Source: Solidesulfovibrio alcoholivorans DSM 5433 (lineage in GTDB: Bacteria > Desulfobacterota > Desulfovibrionia > Desulfovibrionales > Desulfovibrionaceae). From it: 64,000 nucleotides of DNA. The translations under genes and the position numbers were made by a program. Within the stretch, counting starts at the first letter, position 1, and each line of letters begins with the position of its first letter. Of the stretch, positions 28,716 to 64,000 are shown piece by piece. The notes beneath the pieces were generated by a model. The model saw only the letters and a list, made by a program, of their open reading frames with translations, was not told the DNA's origin and searched no databases. The DNA lies in assembly GCF_000702665.1 (NCBI RefSeq), contig NZ_JNJA01000014.1, positions 1-64,000 of the forward strand. Reading direction: 5' to 3'.

Positions 28716-28723
28716 AGGAAAGA

Positions 28724-28778
28724 TGCCTCCGGCGGCCGGGGGGGATAATCCCCCCCCGGACCCCCTTGATGGGGACGT
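28724..28778. repeat. Short palindromic repeat module (inverted orientation)
   Basis: GATGCCTCCGGCGGCC followed by GGGGGGGATAATCCCCCCC and a GGACCCCCTTGATGGGG end. It is the reverse orientation of the module at 217-272. It lies directly upstream of the SAM hydroxide adenosyltransferase start. Together with the long repeat at 28880-29090 it fills the roughly 400-base gap before rex; nothing else is visible there apart from a short A/T-richer stretch near 28845-28885. Confidence 0.8.
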
Positions 28779-28879: not shown

Positions 28880-29090
28880 AAACTCGCCCCGGAGGGGCGA
28901 CGGGCCTGCGAGGCCGGAATCGGGAAGGCGAGCCAGGAGCGCAGCGACGGCATCGCCTTCCCGATTCCGGCCTCGCCGACGGACTCCCGCCCGCGCCGAC
29001 ACTTCCGCCCGCCTCCCGCTCCCCCGTCCAGGGGGTCCGGGGGGGATGATCCCCCCCGGCCGCCCGAGGCGTCTTCACTTCGCCTCGCCT
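28880..29090. repeat. Long intergenic repeat, copy 2
   Basis: The stem 28909-28931 pairs perfectly with 28953-28975 around a 21-nt loop (28932-28952) that differs from copy 1 by one base. Relative to copy 1, two adjacent stem pairs change from C-G to A-T on both sides, and a T-A/G-C swap occurs nearer the base. The short module (CCGGGGGGGATGATCCCC) follows at about 29033-29072. In the rex gene's orientation it begins about 30 bases after the rex stop. Confidence 0.78.
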
Positions 29091-52068: not shown

Positions 52069-53497
52069 ATGGACGGCATCATGTCTTCCCAGGAGAACAA
52101 GGAGCATCCCGGACAAGGCGCGTCGCCGCAGCCGTTGCAGGTCGCAAGCTTCGTGGCGGCGTTTCCGCGCACGCTGCCGTTGCGCCGTCTGCCCCTGGAC
52201 GTGGCCCGCGACGGCCGCGAATCCTTCCGGATGCCCTCCCGGCTGCGGGCCTGCCCCTTCCCCCGGGTCCCGGTCTATCTCCCGCCCGAAGCGTCGTCGC
52301 ACCCGACCACGCTCGAGGACCTCATCGGCATCGAACACAGCAAGCTCGGGTTCTACCAGGAACTGCGCCAGAAGGTGCAGGAGCTGCGCGAGGCCCACGA
52401 GGAATCGGAACTGCGCCGCCAGGAGATCGCGGCGATCCTCGACGGCATCACCGACATCATGATGGTGCTCACCAAGGACCTGCGCATCATCTCGGTCAAC
52501 CACGTCTTCCACGAACTCTTCAGCGTGCCGCGCCCCGAAGGCCAGCACTGCTACAAGCTCTTCCGCGACGCCGACCGGCCCTGCCCCGAGTGTCCGGCGC
52601 ACCGCTCGTTCAAGTCCAATGCCGTGTGCCGCTGCGTGGGCAACTTCAAGATCGGGGGTGTGACGCGCCAGTTCGAAATGGTGGCCTCGCCCATCCACAA
52701 CCCCGACAGTCCCGAGTCGCGCATCCTCATCTTCAAGCGCGACGTGACCCTGGAGCAGGAATACCAGGCCAAGTACTACCAGGCCGAAAAGATGGCCACC
52801 ATCGGCATGCTCGCCGCGGGCGTGGCCCACGAGATCAACAATCCCCTGACCGCGGTCTACGGCCTGGCCGAGGGCATCCGCCGCCGCCTGCCGGTCATCC
52901 GCGCCGCCGTGGAGGACGACCTCTACGCCGACGTCTCGGAATACACCGAGACCATCCTCATGGAATGCCGGCGCTGCCGCGACATCGTGCGCTCCATGCT
53001 CTCGTTCTCCCGGCCGCACACCCTGGCCTTCTCGCCGGTGTGCTTAAACGAAGTGGTCACCGACACGCTCAACATCCTGCGCAGCCGGCTGGACGAACGC
53101 GCGAAAAACGGTCTGACGCTTACGGTCAACCTCTACGAGGGGCTGCCCACGGTCCCCGGCGACGAGGCCCAGCTCAAGCAGGTGCTGCTCAACATCCTGG
53201 CCAACTCCATGGACGCCATCAAGGGCGAGGGCGAGATCACCATCACCACCCACCCGGAAAACGACAACACCGTCAACCTGTCCGTGGAGGACACCGGCTG
53301 CGGCATTCCGCCGGAGAACATGGACAAGCTCTTCAATCCTTTTTTCACCACCAAGCCCGTGGGGCAGGGCATCGGCATCAACCTCGCCGCATGCTACAGC
53401 ATCGTGCGCGAACACCACGGCGTCATCGAGGTGGCCAGCGAGGTGGGCCTCGGCACGCACTTCACCGTGAAACTTCCCCTGGACAGCGGCAACACCC

Positions 53498-53505
<8 letters not shown>
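52069..53505 (+). CDS. PAS-domain sensor histidine kinase
   Basis: 478 residues. A soluble N-terminal part (1-110), a PAS domain (about 113-232) holding a cysteine group at residues 161, 172, 175, 187 and 189, then HisKA with the phospho-acceptor in GVAHEINNPLTAVYG (His 254) and an HATPase domain with NILANSMDAI and DTGCGIPPE. No membrane segment, so it senses a cytoplasmic signal; the cysteines could bind metal, a cluster or undergo thiol chemistry. It overlaps the downstream regulator by eight bases, so the two form a pair. Confidence 0.93.
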
Positions 53506-54829
<1,324 letters not shown>

Positions 54830-55768
54830 TCCGCGGCCGGTCGGGCGACGCCCCTCGCCCGGCTTCGCGCCGCCGGCGGCCGCCGGCCGGGAGCCCGACC
54901 CTGCCTGCCCGGCCGGCATGGCCGCATGCCATGCCGCTTTCCGCCACGACGACATCTCCGCCCGCGTTTCCCGTTCTCCTGGAGGAGGGCGGGCGTGGCT
55001 CCCGTCTTTTCCCCACCGGCCACGCGGCCGCGCGCCTTTGCCTCCCGCACGACCCGGGGATCGCCCCGGCAAGGCGACACCCGATGTCGGGCTCGTCTGC
55101 TCTCTTCTTTCCCCGCCGGACGAGCAGCACCGCCGTCAAGTTGTATTTAGTATAACATAGGATATGCAGTGCTTTTGCATATGTTTGCATTAGCATTGCG
55201 ATTGCCGCCATCTGCTCTCCGTAGGCCGTGACGCTTTTTGACCCATTTTTGGAGCCCAAGTGGATCAAAATTTCTTTCCATAATATTTTCACATTATTCT
55301 AGCGTGTTGCCTTTGAAACCATCCCGTTTGGCGTCTCCGGCGCACTGTCAGCGTGTCACACTGGCTGCAATCCTTGCGTGATACTGTGTCGTCAACGCCC
55401 GGGAGGCTCCGTTTTCCTGGCGTCTTTGCTTGGCCTGCTTCTTGCTGCGTTATTGTACCATATGTCGGTCGCAGCGTTTGGAACCAGCAGTGATGCCAAT
55501 TCGCGGGCACCAGTACCGCAGCTGCCAGAGGCGGTGGGGTTTGGGGAACGTAAAAATACTATGTTTATCCTAACACATCAAAGCGCCGCATGCCTCCCTT
55601 CCGCACAGCAAACACTGGGTTCCTTGGCCATGCACGCCTCCAGAAACGCCATTCCATGGTCACGCAAACACAAAAAGCGTGACTCTAGAAATACCGGACC
55701 CGTCCGGGCCGCCGCGCGCCACGCGGTCGCGCCGGCCCTGTGCGGGATGCACAGTTAAGGAGTAGCCC
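54830..55768. other. 939-base intergenic region with an AT-rich core
   Basis: No convincing gene. 54830-55135 is GC-rich with overlapping short ORFs. 55140-55600 is markedly more AT-rich, with TTGTATTTAGTATAACATAGG at its left edge and repeated GCATA/TTGCAT motifs near 55168-55195. An open frame at 55378-55758 has a hydrophobic start but no ribosome site and no homology that I recognise. A sigma-54-like sequence is at 55431. It may be a regulatory region or an insertion relic. Confidence 0.5.
55431..55446 (+). promoter_or_regulatory. Possible sigma-54 promoter upstream of the molybdopterin/mop locus
   Basis: TGGCCTGCTTCTTGCT fits TGGCnnG-N4-TTGCW with the correct spacing. It lies over 320 bases before the first gene, which is far for a leader; chance occurrence is possible. 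Confidence 0.35.
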
Positions 55769-56791
55769 ATGCGCAGCGTCCCCGTCGAAGAAGCCAAAGG
55801 CATGGTCCTTTGCCACGACATCACCCGCATCGTCCCCGGCGAGGGCAAGGGGCCGGCGTTCCGCAAAGGCCACGTCATCGCCGCCGAGGACATCCCCACC
55901 CTGCTGCGCCTGGGCAAGGAACATATCTATGTCTGGGACCTCGCCGAGGGGCTCGTGCACGAGGACGACGCCGCCGCGCGCATCGCCAGGGCCGTGGCCG
56001 GCCAGGGCACGACCCTGACCCAGCCCTGCGAAGGCCGCATCAATCTTCTGGCCGACCGGCGCGGCCTGCTCAAGATCAACACAGAGGCGTTGTTCCGGCT
56101 CAACTCCATCGACGAGGTGACCATCGCCACCATCCACGGCGACGCGGTCGTCTCCCCCGGCCAGATGCTGGCCGGCACGCGGGTCGTTCCCCTGGTTGTC
56201 GCCAAGGAGCGGCTGGAGGCGGTGGAGGCGGTCACGGCCGAAACCGGCGCGGTGGTGTCCGTGCAGCCTTTCCGCCCGCTTCGCGTGGGCGTGGTGACCA
56301 CCGGCGGCGAGGTCTACCACGGCCGCATCGAGGACAAGTTCGGGCCGGTGCTGCGCCGCAAGTTCGATGCGCTGGGCTGTCAGGTCTTCCGCCAGGTCAT
56401 CGTGCCCGACGATCGGGACATGACCGTGCGGGCCATCCGCCAGCTTTTGGCCGAAGGCGCGGAGATGATCGCGGTCACGGGTGGCATGTCCGTCGATCCC
56501 GACGACCTCTCCCCCTCCTCGATCCGGGCCGCCGGAGGCGAAGTCGTGACTTACGGCTCGCCCACCTTCCCGGGGGCCATGTTCATGCTCGCCTACATCG
56601 GCGAAACGCCTGTCGTCGGTCTGCCCGGCTGCGTCATGTACCACAAGGCCAGCATCTTCGACCTGACGGTGCCGCGGCTTGTTGCCGGCGAAAAGCTTTC
56701 CAAGCCCGACATTGTGGCGTTGGGGCACGGCGGGCTGTGCGCCATGTGTCCGGAATGCCGGTATCCGCTGTGCGGATTCGGCAAGAATTAG
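55769..56791 (+). CDS. Molybdopterin-binding MoeA/MogA-like protein
   Basis: 340 residues. The central and C-terminal region (VGVVTTGGEVYHGR, IAVTGGMSVDPDDLSPSSI, VVTYGSPTFPGAMFMLAYIG, VVGLPGCVMYHKAS) is the molybdopterin-binding fold of MoeA/MogA. The N-terminal ~80 residues are unlike MoeA. A cysteine-rich tail (CAMCPECRYPLCGFG) is unusual and could bind a metal or insert cofactor. Next to mop, it is most likely a dedicated molybdenum cofactor insertion factor; this is inferred from context. Confidence 0.82.
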   Translation: MRSVPVEEAKGMVLCHDITRIVPGEGKGPAFRKGHVIAAEDIPTLLRLGKEHIYVWDLAEGLVHEDDAAARIARAVAGQGTTLTQPCEGRINLLADRRGLLKINTEALFRLNSIDEVTIATIHGDAVVSPGQMLAGTRVVPLVVAKERLEAVEAVTAETGAVVSVQPFRPLRVGVVTTGGEVYHGRIEDKFGPVLRRKFDALGCQVFRQVIVPDDRDMTVRAIRQLLAEGAEMIAVTGGMSVDPDDLSPSSIRAAGGEVVTYGSPTFPGAMFMLAYIGETPVVGLPGCVMYHKASIFDLTVPRLVAGEKLSKPDIVALGHGGLCAMCPECRYPLCGFGKN

Positions 56792-56928
56792 GCGTATCGC
56801 GGCCGTCGGCCGCTGACTGGGGAACATCCGCGCGAGGACGATAGCAGGAGGCGCGCTGGGCCACGACCCGATTCCGCGTCCCGCGTCGGCGAAAACGGCA
56901 ATCATCTAACCAGAGCACGGAGAGAAGC

Positions 56929-59679
56929 ATGGAGATCGCAAAAAAAGCGGAAAAAATCTGGGTCGTGAATGGCATTGAGCGCAAGCTCATCGTCGATCCC
57001 GACGCCTTTCTGTCCGAGGTGCTGCGCGAGCAGATGCACCTGGTCGGCACCAAGGTCGGCTGCGGCAAGGGCCAGTGCGGCGCCTGCTCCGTCATCCTCG
57101 ACGGCAAGGTCGTGCGCGCCTGCATCACCAAGGTCCGCCGCATCGAAAACTACGCCAACATCACCACGATCGAAGGTCTGGGCACCCCCAAGAACCTGCA
57201 CCCGCTGCAGGTGGCCTGGGTGGTCAACGGCGCGGCCCAATGCGGCTTCTGCACCCCGGGCTTCATCATGTCCGCCAAGGGCCTGCTGGACGAGAATCCC
57301 AAGCCCACCCGCGAGCAGGTGCGCGATTGGTTCCAGAAGCACAAGAACGTGTGCCGCTGCACCGGCTACATCCCGCTGGTCGACTCCGTCATGGACGCCG
57401 CCAAGGTGCTGCGCGGCGAGATGACCCTCGACATCAACCACAACTTCCCGGCCGACGGCAACATTTTCAACTCGCGTGCGCCGCGTCCCTCCGGCGTGGC
57501 CAAGGTCACCGGCCAGTGGGCCTTCGGCGACGACCAGAAGCTCCAGCTGCCGCCCGACACCCTGCACCTGGCCATTGTCGAAGCCCGCGTGTCCCACGCC
57601 AACATCAAGGGCATCGACGTCTCCGAAGCCCTCAAGATGGAAGGCGTCCACAGCGTCATCACCGCCAAGGACGTCAAGGGCAAGAACCGCATCACCGGTC
57701 TGATCACCTTCCCCACCAACAAGGGTGACGGTTGGGATCGTCCGATCCTGTGCGACGAGAAGGTGTTCCAGTACGGCGACGCCATCGCCCTGGTCGCCGC
57801 CACTTCCGAAAAGATCGCCCGCGCCGCCGCCGAGCTGGTCAAGGTCGATCTGGAAGTCCTGCCGGCCTACATGAACGCCCCGGCGGCCATGGCCGAAGAC
57901 GCCATCGAGATCCACCCCGGCACCCCCAACACCTACTACAAGCAGGGCCTGGTCAAGGGCGACGATCCCGCGCCCTTCTTCAGCAGCCCCGACTGCGTGG
58001 TGGCCGAAGGCAGCTACTACACCCAGCGCCAGCCGCACCTGCCCATCGAGCCTGACGTCGGCTACGCCATGTACGACGAGGACGGCATCCTGCGCATCTA
58101 CTCCAAGTCCATCGGCCTGTACCTGCACCTGTACATGATCGCCCCGGGCCTCGGCGTCGAGCCGGACAAGATCGCCCTGATCCAGCTGCCCACCGGCGGC
58201 ACCTTCGGCTACAAGTTCAGCCCGACCATGGAAGCCCTCGTCGGCGCCGCCACCATGGCCACCGGCCGTCCCTGCCACCTGCACTACAACTACGCGCAGC
58301 AGCAGTACTACACCGGCAAGCGCTCCCCGTTCTGGACCACCGGCAAGGTGGCCGCCGACAAGAAGACCGGCAAGATCAAGGGCACCCAGCACGAGTGGAT
58401 CTGCGACCACGGTCCCTACTCCGAGTTCGGCGACCTGCTGACCCTGCGCGGCGCCCAGTACTTCATGGCCGGCTACGGCATCCCGAACATGCGCGCCGTG
58501 GGCTATTGCGTGTGCACCAACCACGGTTGGGGTTCGGCCTTCCGCGGCTACGGCTCGCCGGAGATCATGTTCCCCTCCGAGGTCCTGATGGACGAGCTGG
58601 CCCTCAAGGGCGGCTGGGATCCGCTGGAACTGCGCTACACCAACTGCTACCGCCCGGGCGACACCACCCCGACCGGACAGGTGCCTGACTCCTTCATGTA
58701 TCCGGAGATGATCGACATCCTCCGGCCCAAGTACAAGGCGGCCCTGGCCAACGCCAAGCGCCACTCCACCGACACCCTGAAGAAGGGCGTGGGCGTGGCC
58801 TTCGGCATCTACGGCGCGGGCCTTGACGGCGCGGACTCCGCCGGCGCCGACGTCGAGCTCAACGCCGACGGCACCATCACGATCTTCAACACCTGGCAGG
58901 ACCATGGCCAGGGTTCCGACCTCGGCACCCTGTGCTTCGCCCACGAGGCCCTCAAGCCCCTGGGCATCCCGGCCTCCAAGCTGAAGATCTTCCTCAACGA
59001 CACCAGCAAGTGCCCGAACTCCGGCCCGGCCGGCGGTTCGCGCTCCAACGTCCTCGTCGGCAACGCCATCATCAACGGCTGCACGCAGCTCGTCGACGCC
59101 ATGCGCAAGCCCGACGGCTCGTTCCGCACCTACGACGAGATGGTGAAAGACGGCCTCAAGACCAAGTACAACGGCACGTGGACCCAGCCGGCCACCGACT
59201 GCGACCCGAACACCGGCCAGGGCAACCCGTTCGCCAACTACATGTACGGCCTGTTCATGGCCGAAGTGACCGTGGACACCACCACCGGCAAGACCCAGGT
59301 CGACAAGATGACCCTGGTGGAAGACATCGGCACCCTGACCAACCGCCAGACCGTCGACGGCCAGAACTGGGGCGGCTTGGCCCAGGGCGTCGGCCTGGCC
59401 CTGTCCGAGGACTTCGAGGACATCAAGAAGCACTCGTCCCTCGCCGGCGCGGGCGTGCCCTACATCAAGGACATCCCGGACGTCATGGAGCTGATCTACG
59501 TCGACTCGCCGCGTGAACACGGCCCGTTCGGCGGTTCGGGCGTCGGCGAAGTGCCGCTGTGCGGTCCGCACCCGGCCATCATCAACGCCATCGCCAACGC
59601 CACCGGCGGCGCTTTCGTCCGTCACCTCCCGGCCTACCCCGAGAAGGTGCTGGCCGCCATCAAGGAGCTTGGCAAGTAA
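56929..59679 (+). CDS. mop: Molybdenum aldehyde oxidoreductase (Mop)
   Basis: 916 residues, xanthine oxidase family, close to D. gigas Mop (907). [2Fe-2S] clusters: CGKGQCGACSV with a later Cys (residues 45, 50, 53, 65) and CGFC with CRC (105, 108, 142, 144). Molybdenum-site regions include GTFGYKFSPTMEALVG, AFRGYGSPE and GSGVGEVPL with the catalytic glutamate. It has no FAD domain, so it oxidises aldehydes to acids with an external acceptor. The terminator after it suggests strong separate expression. Confidence 0.96.
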   Translation: MEIAKKAEKIWVVNGIERKLIVDPDAFLSEVLREQMHLVGTKVGCGKGQCGACSVILDGKVVRACITKVRRIENYANITTIEGLGTPKNLHPLQVAWVVNGAAQCGFCTPGFIMSAKGLLDENPKPTREQVRDWFQKHKNVCRCTGYIPLVDSVMDAAKVLRGEMTLDINHNFPADGNIFNSRAPRPSGVAKVTGQWAFGDDQKLQLPPDTLHLAIVEARVSHANIKGIDVSEALKMEGVHSVITAKDVKGKNRITGLITFPTNKGDGWDRPILCDEKVFQYGDAIALVAATSEKIARAAAELVKVDLEVLPAYMNAPAAMAEDAIEIHPGTPNTYYKQGLVKGDDPAPFFSSPDCVVAEGSYYTQRQPHLPIEPDVGYAMYDEDGILRIYSKSIGLYLHLYMIAPGLGVEPDKIALIQLPTGGTFGYKFSPTMEALVGAATMATGRPCHLHYNYAQQQYYTGKRSPFWTTGKVAADKKTGKIKGTQHEWICDHGPYSEFGDLLTLRGAQYFMAGYGIPNMRAVGYCVCTNHGWGSAFRGYGSPEIMFPSEVLMDELALKGGWDPLELRYTNCYRPGDTTPTGQVPDSFMYPEMIDILRPKYKAALANAKRHSTDTLKKGVGVAFGIYGAGLDGADSAGADVELNADGTITIFNTWQDHGQGSDLGTLCFAHEALKPLGIPASKLKIFLNDTSKCPNSGPAGGSRSNVLVGNAIINGCTQLVDAMRKPDGSFRTYDEMVKDGLKTKYNGTWTQPATDCDPNTGQGNPFANYMYGLFMAEVTVDTTTGKTQVDKMTLVEDIGTLTNRQTVDGQNWGGLAQGVGLALSEDFEDIKKHSSLAGAGVPYIKDIPDVMELIYVDSPREHGPFGGSGVGEVPLCGPHPAIINAIANATGGAFVRHLPAYPEKVLAAIKELGK

Positions 59680-59709
59680 CCTTCGGGGTCTTACACTCCG
59701 CTAAAAACG

Positions 59710-59747
59710 AACAACGGGGCGGGCGCGATGCGCCCGTCCCGTTGTTT
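59710..59747 (+). terminator. Terminator after mop
   Basis: AACAACGGGGCGGGCGC and GCGCCCGTCCCGTTGTT form a long, nearly perfect stem around GAT, 30 bases after the stop. It has only a short T-run, so downstream genes may be partly read through. Confidence 0.85.
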
Positions 59748-59764
59748 CCCACCGGAAGGCATCC

Positions 59765-62065
59765 ATGAATCAGCAGGACCTGCGAGACATCGAGTACAGG
59801 TGCATCGAGGAAGAACATCCGACCTGTCAGGCCGCCTGTCCCATTTCCGTGGACGTGCGCTCCTTCATGGGCAAGATGGCCGCTGGCGACGTCGCCGGCG
59901 CGCGCAAGATCCTCGACCGCACCATGCCCCTGCCTGGCGTCCTCGGACGCATCTGCGACCATCCCTGCGAACTGGCCTGCATCCGGCAAAACGTCGGCGG
60001 CGCGCTGGCCGTCGGCGATCTCGAGCGCGCCTGCGTCATGGCGTCTCCGGCCGGCGGCAAGCCCATGTGCATGCCGTCCAAAGGCAAGACCGTGGCCGCC
60101 CTCGGCGGGGACCTGAGTTCCCTCACCCTCGCCTGGGACCTGGCCAAGAAAGGCTTCGCCGTGACCCTCTACGTCGCCGCGGACGCCCCCGGCGGCAAGC
60201 TCAACGACATTTCCCCCGACGTCCTGCCGCCCGAGGCCCTTGCCGCGGACGTCGCCATGCTCGGCCGCATGGGCGTCACCATCAAGACCGGCCAGACCGT
60301 GGACGCCGCGCTCCTCGACACGCTCGCCGCCTCGTGCGACGCCGTCTACGTCGAATGCGCCAGCCGCGACCTTTGCGGCCTCACCCGGGCCGACGTCGAT
60401 CCCATCACCCTGCAAGGCCCCAAGCCGAACGTCTTCTGCGGCGGCTGGCCCCAGCCCGACGGTTCCCGGTCCGTCATCGCCCTGGTCGCCGAAGGCCGCC
60501 GGGCCGCCATGACCATCGACCGCCTCACCGCCGGCGCGAGTCTCACCACGAGCCGCGAAAAGGAAGGCGTCACCAAGACCCGGACGTTCACGAGCCTCAA
60601 GGGCGTGCCCGCGGTACCGCGCACCGAACCGGCCGACCGCATCGCCGGCTTCCCCCCGGACGCCGCCAGGGCCGAGGCCGCCCGCTGCCTCCAGTGCGAC
60701 TGCATGGAGTGCGTCAAGGTCTGCGAATTCCTCAAGCACTACAAGGGCTACCCCAAACTCTACGCCCGGCAGATCTACAACAACCTGTCCATCGTCCTCG
60801 GCAACCACTATCTCAACCGCATGATCGATTCCTGCACCCTGTGCGGGCTGTGCACCGAGGTCTGCCCCGAGGACTTCTCCATGGCCGAGCTCTGCCTCGA
60901 CTCGCGCCGCGACATGGTCAAGCGCGGCAAGATGCCGCCTTCGGCCCACGAATTCGCCCTGGAGGACATGGCCTTTTCCAACGGCGAGGACTTTGCCCTG
61001 ATGCGAGGCGAACCCGGCAAGGACCGCTGCGCCCATCTCTTTTTCCCCGGCTGCCAGCTCGGCGGCGAACCCGACAGCCGCATTCCCGAAGCCTACGCCT
61101 TCCTGCGCGCCAAGCTCGACGGCGGCGTGGCCCTGTCGCTCGGCTGCTGTGGCGCGCCGGCGCTGTGGGCCGGCCGCGACGCGCTTTTCGAGGAAGTCGT
61201 GGCCGCCTTCAAGCGCCAGTGGGAGGCCATCGGCAAGCCGCGCCTCATCACGGCCTGCGCCTCGTGCCTGTCGGTGTTTCGCCAGGCCGCGCCGGACATC
61301 CCGGCCGTCTCCCTCTGGGAGGTCATCGAAAAGGAAACCGGGCTGCCCGCGGCCACAGGCTACACCCCGGCCGCGCCGGTCGCCGTGCACGACTCCTGTA
61401 CCTCGCGCCACGACGCAGCCAACCAGGCCGCCATCCGGGCCATCCTGGAAAAGCGCGGCGTGCCCTTCGAGGAACTGCCGCTCTCCGGCCGCTACACCGA
61501 ATGCTGCGGCTACGGCGGCCTTGCCGCCAACGCCCACCCGGAACTGGCCAAGGCCATCACCGAGCGCCGCGCCGCCGCCTCGGACCGCGACTTCCTGGCC
61601 ACCTGCGCCATGTGCCGCGACCGCCTGTCCCACGTGGGCAAGCGCGCCTACCACCTGCTCGACATCCTGTTCCCGGGCAAGGACGCCGCCGACCCGGCCA
61701 CGCGCCCCGATCCCGGCTTTTCCATGCGCCACGAAACCCGCGCCCGCCTGCGCCGCGAGTTGCTCGCCTCGGTCTGGAACGAGCGCGTGGACGCCAAGGC
61801 CCCGGTCGGCCCGGATTTCGTCGTCAGCCCCGAAGTGCGCGCGCGCATGGAGGCGCGGCACATCCTCGACGACGACGTGCGGCGCGTTCTCGCCCATGCC
61901 GAAACGACCAACCGCAAGTTCCTCGACCGCGAAACCGGCCGTTTCCTGGCCAGTTTCACCCCCCACCGCGTCACCTACTGGGTGGAATACGTGATGGAAG
62001 AGGGCGTCGCCCGCGTGTTCACGGCCTACAGCCACCGCATGAACGTGGTCGGCGTGGGGAAATAG
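59765..62065 (+). CDS. GltD-like / HdrD-like fusion oxidoreductase
   Basis: 766 residues in three parts. The N-terminal ~100 residues have the GltD-type cluster (CQAACPISVDVRSFMG, CDHPCELACIR). A Rossmann-like domain follows, with the usual GxGxxG degraded to ALGGDLSSLTLAWDLA. Then two ferredoxin motifs (CLQCDCMECVKVC; CTLCGLCTEVCP), CCG-type sites (LGCCGAPALWAG; ECCGYGGLAANAHPE) and ACASC/CAMC cysteines, and a C-terminal domain of unknown fold. Homologues are seen beside Mop genes in Desulfovibrio. It probably carries electrons from aldehyde oxidation to a disulfide or quinone-like acceptor. Confidence 0.85.
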   Translation: MNQQDLRDIEYRCIEEEHPTCQAACPISVDVRSFMGKMAAGDVAGARKILDRTMPLPGVLGRICDHPCELACIRQNVGGALAVGDLERACVMASPAGGKPMCMPSKGKTVAALGGDLSSLTLAWDLAKKGFAVTLYVAADAPGGKLNDISPDVLPPEALAADVAMLGRMGVTIKTGQTVDAALLDTLAASCDAVYVECASRDLCGLTRADVDPITLQGPKPNVFCGGWPQPDGSRSVIALVAEGRRAAMTIDRLTAGASLTTSREKEGVTKTRTFTSLKGVPAVPRTEPADRIAGFPPDAARAEAARCLQCDCMECVKVCEFLKHYKGYPKLYARQIYNNLSIVLGNHYLNRMIDSCTLCGLCTEVCPEDFSMAELCLDSRRDMVKRGKMPPSAHEFALEDMAFSNGEDFALMRGEPGKDRCAHLFFPGCQLGGEPDSRIPEAYAFLRAKLDGGVALSLGCCGAPALWAGRDALFEEVVAAFKRQWEAIGKPRLITACASCLSVFRQAAPDIPAVSLWEVIEKETGLPAATGYTPAAPVAVHDSCTSRHDAANQAAIRAILEKRGVPFEELPLSGRYTECCGYGGLAANAHPELAKAITERRAAASDRDFLATCAMCRDRLSHVGKRAYHLLDILFPGKDAADPATRPDPGFSMRHETRARLRRELLASVWNERVDAKAPVGPDFVVSPEVRARMEARHILDDDVRRVLAHAETTNRKFLDRETGRFLASFTPHRVTYWVEYVMEEGVARVFTAYSHRMNVVGVGK

Positions 62066-62086
62066 GGCGAGCGGAAGAGAAAAAAA

Positions 62087-62140
62087 GATGCCTCCGGCGG
62101 CCGGGGGGATAATCCCCCCCGGACCCCCTTGAAGGGGTGT
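62087..62140. repeat. Short palindromic repeat module (inverted orientation)
   Basis: GATGCCTCCGGCGGCC, GGGGGGATAATCCCCCC, GGACCCCCTTGAAGGGG. It begins about 20 bases after the fusion gene stop, in the gene-orientation order seen at the other 3' ends. Confidence 0.8.
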
Positions 62141-62163
62141 GAAAGGGGACAGGAGATACGTTT

Positions 62164-62379
62164 ATGGCTGAATCGCTCGTTTATCTGCCGCAATCCGGCG
62201 ACTGGACCTGCTGCTCCTGCGGCGATCCGCTTGAGCCCCGGGATGCCTCGGTCACCTATCTCGAAGGCGGCTTCACCATCCAGGTGCTCACCTGCCCCAA
62301 GTGCAATATGGCGCTTTTGCCCGAGTACGTGGCTGTGGGCAAAATGCTGGAAGTGGAGCAGTTGCTGGAGGACAAGTAG
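62164..62379 (+). CDS. Small zinc-ribbon redox protein (DVU_1557-like)
   Basis: 71 residues. CCSCG near residue 16 and CPKC near residue 46 make a CxxC-CxxC knuckle that should bind zinc or iron. It resembles the small protein of the Mop-associated gene set in D. vulgaris. GGAGATACG precedes the ATG; the stop overlaps the methyltransferase start by one base. Confidence 0.82.
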   Translation: MAESLVYLPQSGDWTCCSCGDPLEPRDASVTYLEGGFTIQVLTCPKCNMALLPEYVAVGKMLEVEQLLEDK

Positions 62380-63071
62380 TGCAGGTCGCCGTCGCGCCGT
62401 ATGCGCGGGAGGATTTCCAGCGCGTGGCCGGCGAAACCCTGCGGCCCGGCGGCCTGACCCTGACCGCGCGCGCCCTGGCCGCCTGCCGTTTCGCCCCCGG
62501 GGCCAGGGTTCTCGACCTCGGCTGCGGGCCGGGCGCGACCCTCGGACTCCTGGCCGAAGACGGCCTTTGCGCCGCCGGCCTCGACGCGTCGGAAGAATTT
62601 CTGGCCCAGGCGGCCCTCCGCGGTCCGGTCGTCCGGGGACACGCGCAGGAGCTGCCCCTGCGCGACGGCTGCCTGGACGGCGTCTTTTGCGAATGCGTGC
62701 TCTCCGCAACCGGCGACGCGCCCGCAACCCTTGCCGCCATCGCCCGCGCGCTACGCCCGGGCGGGCTGCTCGCCCTCACCGACCTCTACCTGCGCCCCGG
62801 TCCGCAGCCGGGCAGCGCCGCCGCCGGCTGCGTGGCCGGGGCCGTCCCGCGCGAGGTCCTGACGCGCCAACTGGAAGCCGCCGGCCTCGCCCCGTTATTT
62901 TTCGAGGACCATACGAAGCTTCTGACCGAACTGGCCTGCCGCCTGACCATGGCCCTGGGTTCGGCCCAAAGCGTCGTCGCCATGCTTACGGGCCGCGATC
63001 CGGCATGCGCCGGCGGACCGCGTCCGCGCCTGGGCTACTGCCTGATCCTGGCCGCCAAGGAGACGCCATGA
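62379..63071 (+). CDS. Class I SAM-dependent methyltransferase (DVU_1556-like)
   Basis: 230 residues. VLDLGCGPGATLGLLAEDG (SAM-binding motif I), GLDASEEFL (motif II) and ARALRPGGLLALTDLY (motif III region) define the fold. The substrate is unknown; context suggests a small molecule or cofactor precursor used in Mop maturation. Start GTG at 62379, with GGAGG ten bases upstream; translational coupling to the preceding gene is likely. Overlaps the next gene by four bases. Confidence 0.88.
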   Translation: MQVAVAPYAREDFQRVAGETLRPGGLTLTARALAACRFAPGARVLDLGCGPGATLGLLAEDGLCAAGLDASEEFLAQAALRGPVVRGHAQELPLRDGCLDGVFCECVLSATGDAPATLAAIARALRPGGLLALTDLYLRPGPQPGSAAAGCVAGAVPREVLTRQLEAAGLAPLFFEDHTKLLTELACRLTMALGSAQSVVAMLTGRDPACAGGPRPRLGYCLILAAKETP

Positions 63072-63511
63072 ATCCCGCGATGCTCGACATCATGCCCCTT
63101 GCGGCGAAGAACTACTGTTGCAGCCAGATCCTCATGCTCATGGCGTTGCGCGCCCAGGGGATCGAGAACTGGGAGCTCGTGCGCGCCGCGTCCGGCGTGT
63201 GCCACGGCATGGGCGCTTCGGGCCTGACCTGCGGCATCCTGACCGGCGGCTGCCTGGTGATCGGTCTCTACGTCGGCCGAGGCCGCGAGGAGGAGCTGCA
63301 AAACGACAAGGCCGACCTCCTCGTCACCGAATTCGTGGACTGGTTCCGCGACCGCGTGATTCCCGACTACGGCGACATCACCTGCCAGGCCGTGCTCGGC
63401 GACGGCAAGCCCGACGTCACCCGTTGCGGCGGCCTGCTCGCCGAGGCCTGGGACCAGATCCTGACCATTTTGACCGAAGCCGGCATCGACCCGTCGCAGC
63501 CCCGGGAGTGA
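63068..63511 (+). CDS. C-GCAxxG-C-C-type redox protein (DVU_1555-like)
   Basis: 147 residues. Cysteines in NYCCSQ, GVCHGMGASGLTCGILTGGC, then CQAV and CGGLL follow the pattern of the C-GCAxxG-C-C family of putative redox proteins, with the GCAxxG part modified. One hydrophobic stretch (GILTGGCLVIGLYVG) lies within the cysteine region. Likely a partner of the radical SAM protein that follows one base later. Confidence 0.82.
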   Translation: MNPAMLDIMPLAAKNYCCSQILMLMALRAQGIENWELVRAASGVCHGMGASGLTCGILTGGCLVIGLYVGRGREEELQNDKADLLVTEFVDWFRDRVIPDYGDITCQAVLGDGKPDVTRCGGLLAEAWDQILTILTEAGIDPSQPRE

Positions 63512-63512
63512 C

Positions 63513-64000
63513 ATGACCGCGCCTTCCGGTTCCTTTCCGACCACGAGCCTTTGCCCCGTCTGTCTGCGCCGGGTGACCGCCCGGCGCGAGTGCGACGGCC
63601 CGGACGGCTGGATCGTCAAAACCTGTCCCGAGCACGGGGAGTTTCGCGCCCGCTTCTGGCACGGCCCGCCCGGCCTGACCGGCTGGAACCGGCCCAAGGT
63701 GCCGGGCGCGCCGCCGCCGCGACTCACACAGTCGCACCGGGGCTGCCCCTACGACTGCGGCCTGTGCCCGGAGCATGGCCAGCGCACCTGTACCGCGCTT
63801 TTCGAGATCACCGCCCGCTGCAACCTGCGCTGCCCGGTCTGTTTCGCCACGGCGGGAGAGGCCCCGCCGCCCGATCCTTCCCTTGAGGCCCTGGCCGCGC
63901 GCTTCGAAACCATTTTCGCCGCCGTCGGGCCGGTCAACGTCCAGCTTTCCGGCGGCGAGCCCACCATGCGCGACGACCTGCCCGAGGTGGTGGCCGCCTG
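63513..64000 (+). CDS. Radical SAM protein (TrsS-like), truncated by window end
   Basis: The first 162 residues. An N-terminal CPVC at residue 15 and TCPEHG resemble a zinc-ribbon, followed by GCPYDCGLCPEHG and the cluster motif CNLRCPVC within FEITARCNLRCPVCFA, then VQLSGGEPTMRDD (SAM-binding GGEP). It belongs to the radical SAM branch associated with Mop-type gene sets, some of whose members carry selenocysteine at the CPxC site; this copy has ordinary cysteine. Its product is unknown. Confidence 0.82.
   Translation, partial: MTAPSGSFPTTSLCPVCLRRVTARRECDGPDGWIVKTCPEHGEFRARFWHGPPGLTGWNRPKVPGAPPPRLTQSHRGCPYDCGLCPEHGQRTCTALFEITARCNLRCPVCFATAGEAPPPDPSLEALAARFETIFAAVGPVNVQLSGGEPTMRDDLPEVVAA

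Follow-up and report, generated by a model that had tools for sequence, protein, structure and literature searches.

We describe an operon of Solidesulfovibrio alcoholivorans DSM 5433 in which the gene for a molybdenum aldehyde oxidoreductase (Mop) is followed by genes for a GltD/HdrD fusion protein, a small zinc-ribbon protein, a methyltransferase, a cysteine-containing C-GCAxxG-C-C protein (CGA), a radical SAM protein (TrsS) and a PaaK-like protein. Co-occurrence and gene order across genomes rule out chance as the source of the association between this module and Mop. The interpretation we favor, with somewhat less than even confidence, is that the operon encodes an aldehyde-oxidizing redox complex together with a maker unit that builds or installs a redox group. 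This group would belong to the side of the complex formed by the HdrD-like domain, the C-terminal domain of the fusion (Cdom) and the zinc-ribbon protein, and not to the molybdenum site.

The window is the whole analyzed stretch of 64,000 nucleotides from contig NZ_JNJA01000014.1, and the genes form one operon that extends about 4.9 kb past its end. The continuation of the contig was read as locus L009, where the window position equals the L009 position + 53999. In window coordinates, the features are:

55769-56791, + strand: MoCF/MoeA-like molybdopterin-binding protein, likely for Mo-cofactor assembly (PF00994, 3e-24; under all NCBIfam cut-offs)
56929-59679, + strand: Mop, molybdenum aldehyde oxidoreductase of the MCD type (NF045668, 1567 bits, cut-off 1100; best PDB matches 1dgj and 1sij)
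59765-62065, + strand: GltD-N / dicluster / HdrD-like (CCG) fusion with Cdom (NF045663, 1010 bits, cut-off 530; Fer4_20, CCG, Fer4_17)
61805-62065, + strand: Cdom, the 86-residue C-terminal part of the fusion, encoded by its own ORF in loci without Mop
62085-62137, no strand given: copy of a GC-rich, genome-wide intergenic repeat (46 further match rows in the same genome)
62164-62379, + strand: DVU_1557-type zinc-ribbon protein, 71 aa, ending in LEDK (NF045645, 87.6 bits, cut-off 60; PF24292)
62379-63071, + strand: class I methyltransferase of the DVU_1556 family, GTG start (NF045667, 212-212.9 bits, cut-off 155)
63068-63511, + strand: CGA, DVU_1555 family (NF045669, 165.7 bits, cut-off 103)
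63513-64871 on the contig, + strand: TrsS, with its N-terminal 162 residues in the window at 63513-64000 (NF045646, 630 bits for the full gene, cut-off 490)
64862-65923, past the window: PaaK-like adenylating protein (NF045666, 410 bits, cut-off 300)
65920-66954, past the window: XdhC-family AOR maturation factor (NF045664, 394 bits, cut-off 350)
66951-68198, past the window: MocA-like NTP transferase with HD domain, DVU_1551 family (NF045665, 416 bits, cut-off 315)
68279-68896, past the window, after an 80-base gap: CobC-like phosphatase (under the NCBIfam cut-off)

The genes named in the initial annotation, from Mop to the radical SAM enzyme, are all present where it placed them and above curated NCBIfam cut-offs, with TrsS, which runs over the window end at 64000, scored at full length. 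One correction is needed, in that the stretch 55769-64000 opens with the MoCF-like gene, upstream of Mop. The close packing described there is also borne out: the zinc-ribbon and methyltransferase genes share base 62379, the methyltransferase and CGA genes share 63068-63071 (4 bases), and CGA and TrsS lie 1 base apart. The upstream junctions are wider (MoCF/Mop 137, Mop/fusion 85 and fusion/zinc-ribbon 98 bases), and the last of these contains the repeat copy. Reading the cluster past 64000, as had been proposed, yields the remainder of TrsS and the PaaK-like, XdhC-family, MocA-like NTP transferase/HD and CobC-like genes. MoCF-like, XdhC-type and MocA-like proteins belong to the kinds of protein known to assemble and insert MCD; the MocA-like protein here scores below the MocA cytidylyltransferase model TIGR03310 (116 vs 186 bits).

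Nine of the 11 operon genes match above cut-off the NCBIfam series named after DVU_1551-DVU_1559 of D. vulgaris, and, as the naming of the families makes clear, the cluster around these genes has already been catalogued by NCBI curators. The present operon differs from the series in its MoCF-like and CobC-like proteins, which fall below cut-off, and in the repeat between its fusion and zinc-ribbon genes. A literature search for the DVU_1551-1559 cluster found no paper giving its function; in the accessible parts of the sources searched, DVU1559 appears in table rows only and TrsS in a selenoprotein table. As to a selenocysteine form of TrsS, no in-frame stop was found in the window copy or in the others (33 over-cut-off matches in the phylum sample).

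Two further copies of the repeat lie in the window at about 28719-28774 and 29022-29075, and the copy at 62085-62137 separates two genes which, in several relatives, overlap or almost adjoin. A histidine kinase and a sigma-54-type response regulator are encoded directly upstream of the operon (52069-54829). Control of the operon by this pair through sigma-54 was considered and rejected, as the gap before the MoCF gene holds only two 2-mismatch sites; sigma-54 sites are not enriched in the window (22 found vs 30 expected from shuffles), and a sigma-70 search of 54800-64000 gave one weak match, equal to shuffles.

To follow the module across genomes, we scored 297 genomes of the phylum, taking presence as a match above the NCBIfam cut-off. 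The genome counts were 26 for Mop, 27 for the fusion, 33 for TrsS and 31 for the methyltransferase. Phylogenetic profiling with Mop, which the initial annotation had suggested, thus places the fusion in 26/26 Mop genomes (the 27th fusion genome, G104, has a partial Mop match) and TrsS in 25/26, the exception being G241 (Fisher p = 2e-36 for fusion/Mop and 2e-28 for TrsS/Mop, for genomes that are not truly independent). Eight TrsS genomes, G104 included, have no over-cut-off Mop. The methyltransferase is above cut-off in 29 of the 33 TrsS genomes; in G104, G208, G131 and G252, which also carry TrsS, it scores 143-152 bits (cut-off 155), and the next genome scores 107. Conversely, the methyltransferase occurs without an over-cut-off TrsS in G241 and in G039, where the TrsS gene is split in the assembly.

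Gene order was compared in 40 loci from the phylum sample (32 over cut-off, 8 lower), 80 from named genomes (the best 80 of at least 276 confirmed relatives in a profile search of genome contigs) and the window. A TrsS match of >400 bits was present in 120 of these 121 loci, and 39 were left out for short flanks, leaving 81 whose flanks reach 6.8 kb or more upstream and 1.5 kb or more downstream; the presence of each gene was judged by analysis-specific score thresholds. Mop occurs in 50/81 loci, and all 50 have the full fusion. The zinc-ribbon and PaaK-like genes are each found in 49 of these Mop loci, the methyltransferase in 48 and CGA in 46, followed by the NTP transferase (34), phosphatase (29), XdhC (23) and MoCF (21). 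The strict order Mop-fusion-zinc-ribbon-methyltransferase-CGA-TrsS-PaaK-like is kept in 34/50, spanning Thermodesulfobacteriota, Chloroflexota, Bacillota, Synergistota, Spirochaetota and Pseudomonadota. Three loci (L009, L051, L054) miss it solely through use of the longest ORF start and five (L044, L068, L086, L126, L145) solely by an extra copy, while eight (L067, L073, L084, L096, L099, L133, L136, L142) truly depart, being rearranged, inverted or lacking a gene. Hosts of the Mop-linked module include Desulfovibrio, Clostridium tyrobutyricum, Acetobacterium, Sporomusa, Chloroflexi and Synergistaceae. The 31 loci without Mop comprise Tes-like genes, Mop-less modules, archaeal loci, lone TrsS genes and one fusion-bearing locus.

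Two genomes divide the module in the same place. The S. alcoholivorans genome carries Mop, fusion and zinc-ribbon genes a second time in locus L010 (1700-16104), close to a xanthine-dehydrogenase-like set of three subunits (by eye and Mop profile), and no methyltransferase, CGA, TrsS or PaaK-like gene was found in the 20 kb read there; the one over-cut-off TrsS and methyltransferase of this genome lie elsewhere. In G296, locus L163 combines Mop, fusion and zinc-ribbon genes with those for MoCF, XdhC and the NTP transferase within 16 kb, and the maker genes, including the one over-cut-off TrsS and methyltransferase of the genome, are on another contig (L043). This split suggests a client unit and a separate maker unit acting in trans, though such separate Mop-fusion-zinc-ribbon loci may simply not need the maker unit. 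In G241 (L166), Mop, fusion, zinc-ribbon, methyltransferase, CGA and PaaK-like genes are present and TrsS is missing between CGA and the ligase, so either TrsS may be dispensable or this assembly is incomplete. Two further Mop paralogues of the S. alcoholivorans genome (G000; L011 on C24 and L012 on C6), one with its own MoCF gene, are accompanied by neither the full fusion nor module genes within the 20 kb read.

On the favored interpretation, the fusion, Cdom and zinc-ribbon protein would be the physiological electron acceptor of Mop. Less surely, the methyltransferase, CGA, TrsS and PaaK-like protein would constitute the maker unit, able to act in trans, whose steps might be adenylation of a carboxylate, radical chemistry at an unactivated carbon and methylation, giving a redox-active group. 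That group would serve the HdrD/Cdom/zinc-ribbon side and not the Mo site.

Several features of the presumed client side can be traced through the relatives. The last 80-90 residues of the fusion, Cdom, are an ORF of their own in Mop-less modules, and nine modules in the Mop-less branch of the TrsS tree all have Cdom, zinc-ribbon, methyltransferase and TrsS genes, with a PaaK-like gene in 8/9 and an HdrD-like gene in 7/9, so the link to HdrD is not universal. Some Mop-less modules also include a 238-aa membrane-type protein (L066 2010-2726, L072 11468-12184), of which the L066 copy has no Pfam or NCBIfam match; a 2-hydroxyglutaryl-CoA dehydratase-type gene lies near the module in L059.

In four archaeal loci among the relatives listed, Cdom and a zinc-ribbon homologue that lacks Cys form a single protein. 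The bacterial zinc-ribbon family model scores these proteins weakly (12.8 to 16.6 bits); in the reverse search, with a model of the archaeal C-terminal part, the first 19 non-self matches are bacterial zinc-ribbon proteins (E 4.5e-4 to 0.22). An AlphaFold model of the archaeal fusion (pLDDT 91.4, pTM 0.86) matched no PDB chain at E <= 0.001, a hint from modeling that its fold may not have been seen before. Archaeal TrsS loci with a PaaK-like ligase are L137, L120, L128 and L150; L137 encodes a URO-D/MtaA-like protein and a DUF169 protein, which were also seen by eye in other archaeal TrsS loci.

The bacterial zinc-ribbon protein is itself strongly constrained. Across 74 homologues, the only invariant positions are four Cys, one Glu and one Lys, the Lys being the last residue in 70/74 and third from the end in the other 4. 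A ribosome-binding constraint was rejected as the whole cause of the conserved LEDK end, because an SD-like motif is absent from the last four codons in 33/74 genes, of which 30 nevertheless end in Lys, with mixed synonymous codons.

The main alternative, which we regard as unlikely, is that the operon is a substrate pathway in which TrsS and the methyltransferase produce a carboxylate or an aldehyde, Mop converts aldehyde and acid into each other, and the acid is activated by the PaaK-like protein. PaaK-like proteins do activate acids (NF045666 and PaaK matches), and the TrsS module of G296 (L043, 6156-13001) lies beside an AFOR-type aldehyde oxidoreductase, from another aldehyde-linked family, and Hdr-like genes. 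Against this, the window PaaK-like protein ends 45 residues past its last conserved motif, which makes thioester formation doubtful there. It stops 20 residues after the end of its PDB match, so that the C-terminal domain of phenylacetate-CoA ligase is not found, and it scores 116 vs 646 bits for the phenylacetate-CoA ligase model TIGR02155. Among 68 homologues measured, a count that leaves out 13 rows without the motif, the tail is 25-59 residues long in 15 and 106-155 in 53; 13 of the 15 short proteins belong to the TrsS branch holding the window, and in the D. gigas-like locus the tail is long (128 residues). Spending SAM on both methyltransferase and radical SAM steps would, moreover, suit a low-flux biosynthesis better than a substrate pathway.

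What TrsS does chemically bears on a second alternative, that it is a bacterial relative of the tetraether lipid synthase Tes coupling alkyl chains, with an indirect link to Mop, e.g., through fatty aldehydes; we consider this improbable. The structure model of the window TrsS (pLDDT 86.7, pTM 0.90) finds Tes (GDGT-MAS; 7tol, 7tom) as its closest solved structure (7tol: TM 0.78 by query length, E 9e-41), sharing the fold and the ligands of a rubredoxin-type iron and three [4Fe-4S] clusters. Each Cys/His/Met ligand position of these four metal centers is conserved in 98-100 of 100 TrsS rows, with gaps or single changes in the remainder (rubredoxin and N-cluster motifs and Met439 were taken from the available text of PMC9433317; the other C-cluster Cys are conserved columns). 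Archaeal TrsS genes, furthermore, stand beside genes that by eye look like ether-lipid genes (GGGP synthase, UbiA type). Other observations speak against the lipid reading. TrsS scores 319.6 bits against the Tes cut-off of 450 (NF045702), and at the position of Tyr459, termed strictly conserved in archaeal homologues in the part of the Tes paper available (PMC9433317), Tyr occurs in 0/98 TrsS rows (2 gaps; Val421 in the window) vs 17/19 of the Tes clade. TrsS has an additional invariant Cys93 (100/100 rows vs 3/19 in the Tes clade), its middle region, which links the two parts that align with Tes, is shorter and shows little conservation, and the gene partners differ. TrsS is thus Tes-like in its machinery and, judging from alignment and model, probably differs in substrate. 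The accessible portion of the Tes paper also states that bacterial homologues exist in organisms not known to make such lipids (PMC9433317).

A TrsS tree (119 rows, quick method, midpoint root) separates a Tes branch (19 rows, support 99), an archaeal branch (5 rows, 100), a Mop-less branch (10 rows, 96) and a Mop branch (85 rows, SH-aLRT 99). All 63 TrsS rows from Mop loci fall in the 85-row branch, a placement that separates them from the archaeal modules and from most of those lacking Mop. The other 22 rows of this branch have no Mop in the fetched stretch; they include the Mop-less modules L043, L050 and L110 and most lone TrsS genes (10/11 rows labeled solo, alone as far as the fetched stretch shows). 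Such Mop-free rows and lone genes count against the favored interpretation, and the lone genes might be a system of their own. Two TrsS/Tes-like genes stand in tandem in L115 and in G146 (C42:7624-10356).

The crystallized enzymes of the Mop family (D. gigas AOR, 1sij/1vlb; D. desulfuricans AOR, 1dgj) constrain what the module might do for Mop itself. Over 311 residues, window Mop shares 67.5% identity with 1dgj. The 1dgj protein itself has its gene in G302 (100% identity over 312 residues) and the 1sij protein in G383 (100% over 309), identities from which we infer that these are the species of the crystallized AORs; both genomes carry Mop-fusion-zinc-ribbon-methyltransferase-CGA-TrsS-PaaK-like genes in this order. 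According to the available text of PMC10223205, D. gigas AOR, the first crystal structure of the xanthine-oxidase family, was solved at 2.25 and 1.28 A with an ordinary MCD and two Fe/S centers. Modification of Mop's own cofactor by the radical SAM protein and methyltransferase is therefore unlikely. The least probable of the readings considered, that the module matures or modifies Mop or its molybdenum cofactor, draws on the operon shared with XdhC-type and MocA-like factors and on the near-perfect co-occurrence with Mop in the phylum sample, but is opposed by this plain MCD in an enzyme whose matching genome carries the module and by the modules in loci without Mop. Of the maturation role put forward in the initial annotation, the functional tie to Mop stands, as do the XdhC-type and MocA-like genes that follow past the window; modification of Mop's cofactor finds no support, TrsS modules also occurring in Mop-less loci and Mop-fusion-zinc-ribbon sets lying apart from the methyltransferase, TrsS and ligase genes in two genomes, while an unknown cofactor may still be made for use elsewhere.

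The same source bears on the acceptor side of our favored interpretation. D. gigas AOR passes electrons through flavodoxin in vitro, so the fusion need not be the Mop acceptor. Flavodoxin is still termed a putative physiological partner in the text available (PMC10223205).

A more specific version of the maker-and-client arrangement is a long shot: TrsS and the methyltransferase would build a group with which the PaaK-like protein would acylate the invariant, mostly C-terminal Lys of the zinc-ribbon protein, and the HdrD-like domain and Cdom would oxidize and reduce this group with electrons from Mop. The proposed parallel is the sHdr-LbpA lipoate system, which, in the parts of the two papers available, couples an Hdr-like system to a small protein carrying the group and to a dedicated ligase encoded in the cluster or close to it (PMC6067878) and has the group built by the radical SAM enzymes LipS1/LipS2 (PMC10332631). 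In contrast to that system, the family matches of the operon genes include no lipoyl domain, LplA-type ligase or LipS family. If this version were true, it would represent a protein-bound redox cofactor system working like sHdr-LbpA yet unrelated in its parts, used as well next to an aldehyde oxidoreductase of the tungsten type and, with changes, in archaea.

For the redox complex and maker unit that we favor, the consequence is more general. The operon offers a candidate physiological partner for Mop, composed of the GltD/HdrD fusion, Cdom and the zinc-ribbon protein, and ties this candidate to an uncharacterized Tes-like radical SAM module, so that one group of bacterial Tes homologues gains a context.
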